From: Clostridiales bacterium | GTDB lineage: Bacteria; Bacillota; Clostridia; Christensenellales; Pumilibacteraceae | Assembly: GCA_029066805.1 (NCBI GenBank) | Contig: JAIEFT010000036.1 | Coordinates: 1-64,000 of the forward strand | DNA: 64,000 bases | Direction: 5' to 3' | In this document: positions 4,076 to 26,493 of the stretch, in pieces | How the letters are laid out: every line of letters starts with the position of its first letter | How positions within the stretch are numbered: position 1 is the stretch's first letter | Made by a program: the position numbers and the translations under genes | The notes under the pieces: model-generated | Database searches by the model: none | What the model was told of the DNA's origin: nothing | What the model saw: only the letters and a program-made list of their open reading frames with translations

Positions 4076-4113
4076 AAACCCTTTGCAGTCGTATTGCAAA
4101 GGGTTTATTTATT
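4076..4113. terminator. Hairpin terminator between convergent trxB and HTH gene
   Basis: AAACCCTTTGCA/TGCAAAGGGTTT perfect 12-bp stem. Confidence 0.8.
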
Positions 4114-4311
4114 TAGTTTGGGGTTATCGGTGCGTTCGAGTAGGTAATCAATTGATACGTTAAAGTAATCGGCAAGTGCAATAAGTGTCGCATAGTCCGC
4201 TTCATGCTCGCCGGTTTCGTATCTGCTTATACTATTTTGGTTTAAGCCCAAATCCATAGCAAGCTTGATTTGTGTAATATTATGTTTTTCTCTTAATTCT
4301 TTTAGGCGCAT
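4105..4311 (-). CDS. XRE-family HTH transcriptional regulator
   Basis: MRLKELREKHNITQIKLAMDLGLNQNSISRYETGEHEADYATLIALADYFNVSIDYLLERTD; ATG with AGGA ribosome-binding site preferred over the upstream TTG. Confidence 0.92.
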   Translation of the reverse strand: MRLKELREKHNITQIKLAMDLGLNQNSISRYETGEHEADYATLIALADYFNVSIDYLLERTDNPKLNK

Positions 4312-4328: not shown

Positions 4329-4357
4329 TTGACAATATTATACCATTATGGTATAAT
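4329..4357 (+). promoter_or_regulatory. Divergent (+) promoter TTGACA-N17-TATAAT overlapping dyad ATTATACC-ATTAT-GGTATAAT
   Basis: -35 4329-4334, -10 4352-4357; dyad 4337-4357. Confidence 0.8.
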
Positions 4358-4406
4358 CATAATATCCCAAATCGGGATAAAATGTCCCTAGGCCATTAGG
4401 CATACC

Positions 4407-4465
4407 GTTCCGTTGAATGCGACGCTAAAGAATCCCCTTTCTCTTGAGAGAGAGGGGGTTCTTTA
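4407..4465 (+). other. GTTCCGTTGAATGCGACGCTAA motif followed by ~18-bp hairpin
   Basis: Stem 4427-4444/4447-4464; same motif and hairpin layout at 17316-17370. Confidence 0.6.
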
Positions 4466-4549
4466 ACATAGAATGATTTTCTGTTTGCAATCTGATTTTG
4501 AATTTATTATTGTCTTGTAATTTTTAATGCAATATGCTACAATAAAATT

Positions 4550-16555: not shown

Positions 16556-17029
16556 ATGAACGAGCTGAACAAAATACCGTCGTTTGAAAAAAATCACAAC
16601 ACACTAATGCCGGGGCTGCACGAGAGCGGCACGGCTAACGGCGTTACCACGTGGGACTTGCGGTTCAAGCGTCCCAACTGCGGCGACTTTTTGGAGCAGG
16701 CGGCGTTGCATTCCATAGAGCATATGTTAGCGACGATACTCAGAAGCTCCGACAAAAAGGATGGCATTGTGTACTTCGGACCGATGGGTTGCAGAACGGG
16801 GTTTTATCTTTTGACCGTCGGCATGAATAGGGCGGAAGTGGTCAAGCTGTTAAAGCAGAGTTTTACCGCTGCGCTTGAGCTTGACTTCGTCCCCGGCGCG
16901 AAACAAGAGGAGTGCGGCAACTACCTCGAGCACGACATTGACGGCGCAAAAGCCGAATGCAAAAAATACATAGAGATACTCAATTCGGAATTAGTGGTTG
17001 GGACTAATAATCAGCCAATAAAAAATTAG
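16556..17029 (+). CDS. luxS: S-ribosylhomocysteine lyase
   Basis: HSIEH zinc motif, PMGCRTGFYLLTVG, EECGNY. Confidence 0.9.
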   Translation: MNELNKIPSFEKNHNTLMPGLHESGTANGVTTWDLRFKRPNCGDFLEQAALHSIEHMLATILRSSDKKDGIVYFGPMGCRTGFYLLTVGMNRAEVVKLLKQSFTAALELDFVPGAKQEECGNYLEHDIDGAKAECKKYIEILNSELVVGTNNQPIKN

Positions 17030-17232
17030 ATTATTTGTCTTCCGATTAGTTCGTCAACCGTAATTCCGTAAAAATCTGCAAGTTTAACGCAAAAATCAAT
17101 ATTCGGTAAAACCTTGCCGCTTTCCCAGCGGCAAATATTTTGGTGCGAAGTACCTATTTGATTTGCAAGCTCTACTGTTGTCAGTTTAGCTATTACGCGT
17201 TGCGTTCTCAATGCCTCACCATAGTTAATCAT
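17026..17232 (-). CDS. XRE-family HTH transcriptional regulator
   Basis: MINYGEALRTQRVIAKLTTVELANQIGTSHQNICRWESGKVLPNIDFCVKLADFYGITVDELIGRQ; AGAGG ribosome-binding site before ATG at 17232. Confidence 0.9.
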   Translation of the reverse strand: MINYGEALRTQRVIAKLTTVELANQIGTSHQNICRWESGKVLPNIDFCVKLADFYGITVDELIGRQII

Positions 17233-17252
17233 AATTATACCTCTCATATATT

Positions 17253-17298
17253 TTTGCACATTTTTGTGCAAAACGCTTGGCTTGCACGTATTTGTGCA
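17253..17298. promoter_or_regulatory. Two operator-like dyads TTTGCACA-N4-TGTGCAAA and TGCAC-N6-GTGCA
   Basis: Dyads at 17253-17272 and 17283-17298, 28 bp centre to centre. Confidence 0.75.
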
Positions 17299-17305
17299 GT
17301 ATAAT
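17277..17305 (+). promoter_or_regulatory. Divergent (+) promoter TTGGCT-N17-TATAAT overlapping second dyad
   Basis: -35 17277-17282, -10 17300-17305. Confidence 0.6.
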
Positions 17306-17315
17306 TATTTATACT

Positions 17316-17370
17316 GTTCCGTGGTTGCGACACTAACGCACCCTCCTTTCTATTGATAGGGGGGTGCGTT
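17316..17370 (+). other. GTTCCGTGGTTGCGACACTAA motif followed by GC-rich hairpin
   Basis: Stem 17335-17347/17358-17370; same layout as 4407-4465. Confidence 0.6.
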
Positions 17371-17420
17371 GAATTGAATAGATAAGAGATAGAATTGAAT
17401 AGAATGTGATAATTCTTACA

Positions 17421-26017: not shown

Positions 26018-26021
26018 ATAT

Positions 26022-26056
26022 AAAAACACCCCTTCTTTTTGAGAAGGGGTGTTTTT
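26022..26056 (+). terminator. Intrinsic terminator
   Basis: AAAAACACCCCTTCT/AGAAGGGGTGTTTTT. Confidence 0.9.
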
Positions 26057-26147
26057 ATGTCGCAGCCAAGGAACGGTATATCAATTATAAAAAGTATTGA
26101 CTTATTTAACAACGATAACAATTTGAGTAATAAAACATATAAAAATC

Positions 26148-26220
26148 ATACGTTTTACGTATAAGAAGATTATATCATACGGAAAACGTATAAGCCAAGC
26201 GCTTTATACGCTTTTCGTAT
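26148..26220. promoter_or_regulatory. Three tandem operator-like dyads ATACG-N5-CGTAT
   Basis: 26148-26162, 26177-26191, 26206-26220; centres exactly 29 bp apart. Confidence 0.85.
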
Positions 26221-26244
26221 ATAATTTTTTTAAGAGGTTTTATT

Positions 26245-26493
26245 ATGAAATTGTTGAAATTTCCCGAGAATTTACGAAATGCATTAGCCGAAAGCGAAAT
26301 GACACAAATAAAGCTTGCCGACCTTTTAGGTACAACGCAAGCGACAGTCAATCGTTGGATAAAAGGTATAAACGAGCCGGACCTGACAACGCTATTGGAA
26401 ATATGTTTATATTTGGACGAAACACCAAACTCGCTTTTAGGCTACGACGATATAACAGAACAAGACGCTTCGGCGTATAAACAAACCCATTAA
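26245..26493 (+). CDS. XRE-family HTH transcriptional regulator
   Basis: FPENLRNALAESEMTQIKLADLLGTTQATVNRWIKGINEPDLTTLLEICLYLDETPNSLLGY. Confidence 0.92.
   Translation: MKLLKFPENLRNALAESEMTQIKLADLLGTTQATVNRWIKGINEPDLTTLLEICLYLDETPNSLLGYDDITEQDASAYKQTH

Follow-up and report, generated by a model that had tools for sequence, protein, structure and literature searches.

Candidate antisense small RNAs beside XRE repressor genes and their putative leader RNA targets in a Clostridiales bacterium

Multicopy small RNAs (sRNAs) that act in trans through one conserved pairing region, under one common transcriptional regulator, are known from streptococci (the csRNAs) and from Listeria (LhrC). In type III toxin-antitoxin systems a ToxN-type nuclease is encoded downstream of tandem antitoxin RNA repeats. 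A third arrangement is that of pIP501, in which CopR, a small lambda-repressor-like HTH protein, and the antisense RNA RNAIII control one gene, repR, and RNAIII attenuates transcription of the leader (PMC4981023).

The locus we investigated lies in a window of 64,000 nucleotides (the whole stretch of DNA that was analysed) from a Clostridiales bacterium. It resembles pIP501 in joining a small HTH repressor to an antisense RNA complementary to an attenuator leader. However, the pIP501 antisense RNA is made at the locus of its own target, whereas here the sRNA and its putative target are unlinked; CopR acts at the target promoter, whereas here the operator-like repeats overlie the sRNA promoter; the pIP501 target is a replication initiator, whereas here it would be a 250-aa protein or, in relatives, YpsA-type SLOG proteins; and, unlike in pIP501, several sRNAs with different repressors appear to share targets. 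Because the antisense RNA is not cis-encoded and the target is not a replication gene, we do not file the arrangement as a member of the pIP501 group. With the csRNAs and LhrC it shares a pairing region conserved across several sRNA copies, but those sRNAs have a regulator in common, whereas here almost all linked copies come with a separate and mostly unrelated XRE protein; and their pairing region is C-rich and aimed at the Shine-Dalgarno site, whereas the one described here is not C-rich and is aimed at a leader switch. The putative target is built like riboswitch and attenuator leaders, with a closing stem (P1), a pseudoknot, a choice between antiterminator and terminator, and a start codon right after the terminator; unlike the described riboswitch classes it has no Rfam match, and an antisense RNA is predicted to be able to override it. 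The layout, structured RNAs in tandem and a terminator immediately ahead of a gene, also recalls type III toxin-antitoxin systems. Here, though, the downstream gene encodes a SLOG-like protein or a 250-aa protein rather than a recognised ToxN-type nuclease, the downstream proteins gave no match in PADLOC and no convincing one in PDB, and the leader units are about 190 nt long and have promoters of their own.

Our best reading of the sequences is a trans-acting multicopy sRNA family with a private, unrelated repressor for most linked copies, aimed at an attenuator RNA that is absent from Rfam. A literature search returned no report of such an arrangement of XRE repressor, antisense sRNA and leader. 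If this reading holds, antisense RNA would be a concrete output for the small stand-alone XRE repressors, a very common class mostly without an assigned role, and several repressors may control one gene set through interchangeable antisense RNAs. Antisense RNAs made at unlinked loci and directed against the strand through which riboswitch-like leaders switch would be the natural counterpart of plasmid antisense attenuation. The comparison also exposes a leader RNA family before SLOG genes, whose function and ligand, if any, are now open to test.

The sRNA copies and their XRE neighbours

At the locus that drew attention, the minus-strand gene XRE2 (17026-17232) encodes a 68-aa single-domain Cro/CI-type repressor (Pfam HTH_3, 37.6 bits, above cut-off). 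Facing away from it is a plus-strand promoter, TTGGCT-N17-TATAAT (17277-17305), laid out as the one at 26169-26198 discussed below. One operator-like dyad, TTTGCACA-N4-TGTGCAAA (17253-17272), lies between XRE2 and this promoter, and a second, TGCAC-N6-GTGCA (17283-17298), with the same half-site, occupies the spacer between its -35 and -10 elements; inverted repeats are in excess over shuffled sequences here (P=0.003). The expected start of the transcript, sRNA-2, is at about 17313, at the motif GTTCCGTGGTTGCGACACTAA (17316-17336), and a hairpin with a terminator-like stem follows at about 17334-17371 (plus strand; RNAfold), without a clear U-run. A sequence-only reading of this DNA had described both dyads, the position of the second within the promoter, and a start point almost at the motif with the hairpin next to it, and all of this is borne out. 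Its observation that the motif is common to two XRE loci stands as well: the gapped pattern GTTCCGT-N1..6-TGCGAC-N-CTAA matches the window at exactly two places, 4407 and 17316, where shuffled sequences would lead one to expect 0.00, and the count for the whole 1.93-Mb genome is likewise two. Directly 3' of the sRNA-2 hairpin lies a fragment, GAATTGAATAGATAAGAGAT (17372-17403, plus strand), of a dispersed genus-wide repeat (approximately AATAGATAAGAGATAAGAATGAA...GCGGCGAAGCCGCAGTCCGAC...TTATCTATTC), of which most genomes of the genus carry many copies; this fragment may have replaced the U-run of sRNA-2.

Searching relatives for the gapped pattern, as had been suggested, gave no match in 73 other genomes of the family, but a covariance model of box plus hairpin did find further copies. 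Together with a second model built from nine copies, it delimits a family of seven copies in the genome (own1 to own7) and three in the sister-species genome G014 (G014a, G014b and G014c, the last at C18:23170). Three of the seven are in the window: own1 (4404-4469, plus strand), own2, which is sRNA-2 (17313-17375, plus), and own5 (26018-26077, minus). The others are own3 (C14:42563), own4 (C39:152113), own6 (C5:30161) and the weaker own7 (C30:75027); nine of the ten copies score 54-76 bits. A promoter and a hairpin are found at nearly all copies, and a U-run at own3, own5, own6 and the three copies in G014; at own1 and own2 the U-run is unclear. Since most copies have a promoter, a conserved box and an intrinsic terminator, each of them looks like an sRNA, and the 3' hairpin is most simply its terminator. 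What the ten copies have in common is the box, while the stems and the XRE genes differ. It is the motif and not the stem that is conserved, and the earlier reading missed what the motif means: it is the complement of part of a leader RNA encoded at another place in the genome.

The family appears to be restricted to these two closely related genomes. Neither the other genomes of the genus nor 74 genomes of the family and 396 of the order gave high-scoring matches with a box, and the matches that remain there are ordinary terminators; weak matches in G006, G012, G026, G268, G412 and others have no convincing box and were set aside as plain terminators. Exact matches to the motif in public contigs (32 bacterial or archaeal, 97 viral) are due to chance or lie in coding sequence, and such a hairpin follows in none of the 58 that were inspected. 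An Rfam scan of the sRNAs returned nothing in the window, and elsewhere only tRNAs and non-credible sub-threshold matches. A small peptide encoded by the box was considered and rejected: own3 has a reading frame (MPFLGCDT...), but by eye it is interrupted in own1 and lacks a start codon in own2.

The other two window copies also have divergent XRE genes. XRE1 (68 aa; 4105-4311, minus strand) diverges from sRNA-1 (own1), whose promoter TTGACA-N17-TATAAT (4329-4357, plus) carries a palindromic operator-like sequence, ATTATACCATTATGGTATAAT (4337-4357; P<0.001 against shuffles), with a second dyad, ATATCCC-N5-GGGAT, at 4362-4378. The box variant GTTGAATGCGACG (4404-4425, plus), which best matches the leaders of G009 and G012, is followed by a hairpin with an 18-bp stem (4426-4465, plus). 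The own5 copy (sRNA-5), absent from the earlier reading, comprises the box ACCGTTCCTTGGCTGCGACA (26077-26057) and a terminator hairpin with a U-run on the minus strand, and scores 59.4 bits with the second model; its promoter, TTGGCT-N18-TATAAT (26169-26198, minus), is accompanied by three repeats built on the half-site TATACG (26205-26221, 26175-26193 and 26146-26164), and XRE5 (82 aa; 26245-26493, plus) is divergent from it.

XRE1-like genes also occur in four relatives (G010, G018, G002 and G011), where they have the same kind of operator-promoter, TTGACA..TATACC-N5-GGTATAAT, and the ATATCCC/GGGATAT dyad as at XRE1. In place of the sRNA there is a short ORF, membrane-like in three of the four. 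Judging from this layout, what an XRE1-like repressor and its promoter control varies from one species to another.

A divergent XRE gene lies upstream of own1, own2, own4, own5, own6, G014a and G014b, that is, of five of the seven own copies (all five within about 170 bp) and two of the three in G014; own3, own7 and G014c have none. With 37 HTH_3 genes above cut-off in the genome and independence assumed, the binomial probability that five of seven copies fall within 200 bp, on the divergent side, is about 5e-13. Enrichment beside XRE genes is therefore real and random placement is not borne out; nor is the motif a generic repeat or a bare terminator, given the XRE linkage and the operator-like repeats over the promoter at XRE sites. 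Pairwise identity among the XRE proteins is mostly no more than 20-35%; the exceptions are XRE2 and XRE6 (56%), the orthologues XRE1 and the XRE of G014a (93%), and the XRE of G014b, which is 44% identical to XRE1 and its G014a orthologue and 37% to XRE4. Because the XREs are mostly unrelated, the copies do not descend from one duplicated cassette. At the site shared by own4 and G014c the left flank is 83% identical over 1.1 kb and the sRNA 82%, but at G014c the XRE gene is absent. This suggests that sRNA and XRE are separable and that their association is functional rather than that of a duplicated block. The proposal of a repeated XRE-plus-RNA cassette thus survives in the recurrence of the module beside XRE genes, but not as a copied unit, since the repressors are so divergent and own3, own7 and G014c lack one.

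At the XRE sites, the sRNA promoters carry an inverted repeat between or over the -35 and -10 elements that is different each time, with its half-site often repeated nearby (own2 has TGCAC, own5 three occurrences of TATACG, own4 ATAGAA/TTCTAT and own6 TTACA/TGTAA). Compared with shuffled sequences, the repeats are clear at own1, own2 and own4 and borderline at own6; those of own5 (by count) and G014b do not exceed the shuffles. Upstream of own7 (C30:75027-75096, minus strand), a copy without a neighbouring XRE gene, lies GATATATCTGTA; since this makes up the greater part of the own6 operator, own7 may be controlled in trans by XRE6.

Leader RNAs complementary to the box

When the genome was searched with the box in reverse complement, C35:41634 came up, a non-coding stretch ending in an intrinsic terminator; similar elements in G009 and G012 had surfaced earlier through their likeness to the own1 box. 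The box consensus, ACCGUUCC-n-UGG-UUGCGACAC, is complementary to the 3' switch of this leader RNA, GUGUCGCA-ACCA-n-GGAACGGU, over about 20-26 nt. The box of sRNA-2, ACTGTTCCGTGGTTGCGACACTAA (17313-17336, plus strand), forms, with a few preceding bases, 26 contiguous base pairs with leader L2 (C35:41583), and G014a and G014c each form about 25 with the G014 leader. Duplex energies between the sRNAs and the leaders of the same genome range from -39 to -48 kcal/mol, with z-scores of -3.0 to -10.6 against dinucleotide shuffles (RNAduplex). For own2, own3, own4, own5 and own7, none of 3162 sites, all drawn from the window, pairs as well as the leader; own1 and own6 are less closely complementary, with one and two of the 3162 window sites scoring as well. 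The variants of box and leader also match: own7 pairs best with L3 (CCGCGUG / CACGCGG), whose linker differs, and the own1 box with leaders of the G009/G012 type. Sequence comparison thus strongly supports the pairing of box and leader, which are unlinked in the genome, with sRNAs on C30, C39, C14 and C5 and leaders on C35 and C46.

A model of the 3' half of the leader gave three in the genome, each directly before an ORF: the tandem pair L1 (C35:41274) and L2, and L3 (C46:14206). Others are in G014 (C1:141218), G007, G009 and G012, with weaker ones in G011, G016, G019 and G006; in all, the family occurs in 30 of the 396 order genomes, in 10 genera. A pattern search with GGNACGGTATGCTA of the leader, allowing one mismatch, gave mostly coding coincidences, with real leaders at four loci. 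Because leaders occur in relatives without the sRNA, the leader does not need it. Rfam gave no credible match to the leader up to E = 5, and a T-box identity was rejected, as the likeness to T-boxes was seen only by eye and Rfam gave no T-box match.

Each leader unit, of about 190 nt, has its own promoter, followed by a 5' strand (TGCGAC...), two hairpins, a small one and then a larger one with the loop GGUAGUAAUACCuGUUCC, the 3' strand of P1 (...GUCGCA), a linker (ACCAnGGAACGGUAUUCUA) and a terminator whose U-run usually runs straight into the ATG. The predicted architecture has a P1 stem, a pseudoknotted P3, and a mutually exclusive antiterminator and terminator before the start codon. In an alignment of 37 members the two strands of P1 covary clearly (cognate strands -21.0 against -11.2 kcal/mol for swapped ones, with 3% of swaps stronger); the covariation is only modest for the pseudoknot and the antiterminator, where 30% of the swaps gave stronger pairing, partly owing to the likeness of most linkers. 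When 21 leaders were folded, in most of them the nascent RNA was predicted to form the antiterminator and the full-length RNA the terminator.

The gene after the leader usually encodes a stand-alone SLOG-like protein, and two that were examined pass the Pfam YpsA cut-off. Behind L2, L3 and the leaders of G014 and G007 is instead a family of 250-aa proteins (MENTLDTEKLYSAFKAITINILVNDYAVERVAFGYEKPGDKAPIDLYL...), those examined having no match in Pfam, NCBIfam, PADLOC or PDB; the ORF behind L1 is a broken copy. In Bacillus subtilis, overproduction of the SLOG protein YpsA inhibits division (PMC7376506), an effect that could favor keeping such genes off.

Proposed regulation and alternative explanations

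At the level of sequence, the recurrence of the sRNA, its adjacency to XRE genes, the operators, the complementarity and a leader family with alternative pairings are established. The explanation we favor, and regard as fairly probable, is that XRE-repressed, trans-acting antisense sRNAs cover the antiterminator strand and favor termination of the leader's gene. The divergent XRE repressor, bound to operators over the sRNA promoter, would block the sRNA, and upon its release an sRNA of 60-150 nt would be made, whose single-stranded box would pair with the 3' switch of an unlinked leader. The strand covered consists of the P1 3' strand and the linker, which would otherwise be used in P1 and the pseudoknot or as the 5' arm of the antiterminator. 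Because the sRNA takes the antiterminator strand, termination should win; the 3' arm of the terminator holds the likely Shine-Dalgarno sequence, which would be hidden, and the gene would be off. In this scheme, XRE off would mean sRNA on and target off. The P1 stem and the pseudoknot of the leader would act likewise in cis, and the sRNA would take precedence over any signal to which the leader responds. We infer the transcription of the sRNA, the action of the repressors at their operators and the direction of the effect. More tentatively, the system may form a fan-in network, in which several unrelated XREs, each with its own operators, feed interchangeable sRNAs into one class of pseudoknotted attenuators and so override the native signal in trans.

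The direction of the effect might also be the opposite. Being similar to two strands of the leader itself, the 5' strand of P1 and that of the P3 loop, the box would compete with the folded state, so the sRNAs could invade P1 and pseudoknot and switch the gene on, through read-through or translation. This is unlikely, however, as the strand covered is the antiterminator 5' arm too, and the terminator would be left free to form. Somewhat less likely still, the leader could be the antidote RNA of a toxin-antitoxin-like pair and the XRE-linked sRNAs would act as sponges for it; tandem units (four in G211, three in G175 and two in the genome studied here), in each of which a promoter and a terminator immediately precede the gene, and the division block by overexpressed B. 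subtilis YpsA (PMC7376506) would fit such a role, but the downstream proteins show no similarity to any PADLOC defence family or solved toxin structure, and the conserved antiterminator pairing points to an attenuator.

The box is a near exact reverse complement of the order-wide leader consensus, and the hairpins score as ordinary terminators in many genomes. This could mean that the motif-hairpin is a mere shared promoter-proximal terminator or dispersed repeat, and its complementarity a functionless relic, an antisense copy of a leader fragment. Such an origin is nevertheless improbable: the box has been kept while stems, XREs and flanks diverged, the copies have their own promoters, most with operators over them, and within each genome the variants of box and leader match. 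Although the box adjoins XRE genes, it is highly improbable that the XRE proteins themselves bind it, as DNA or as RNA, since these proteins are unrelated and have differing operators, yet the box is constant and is found away from XREs as well.

The leaders themselves vary in number and form. Tandem units also occur twice each in G352, G309 and G408. In the larger arrays, on C27 of G211 and C25 of G175, and in the tandem pair of the genome studied here, the units are spaced about 260 nt apart or have a truncated downstream gene between them, which suggests that leader and gene start were recurrently duplicated. In G006 (C43:423-521) there is a P1-terminator RNA with leader-like ends (CCTGCGACACA...TGTGTCGCAACAATGTGG) and a different internal structure, possibly a second leader subclass.
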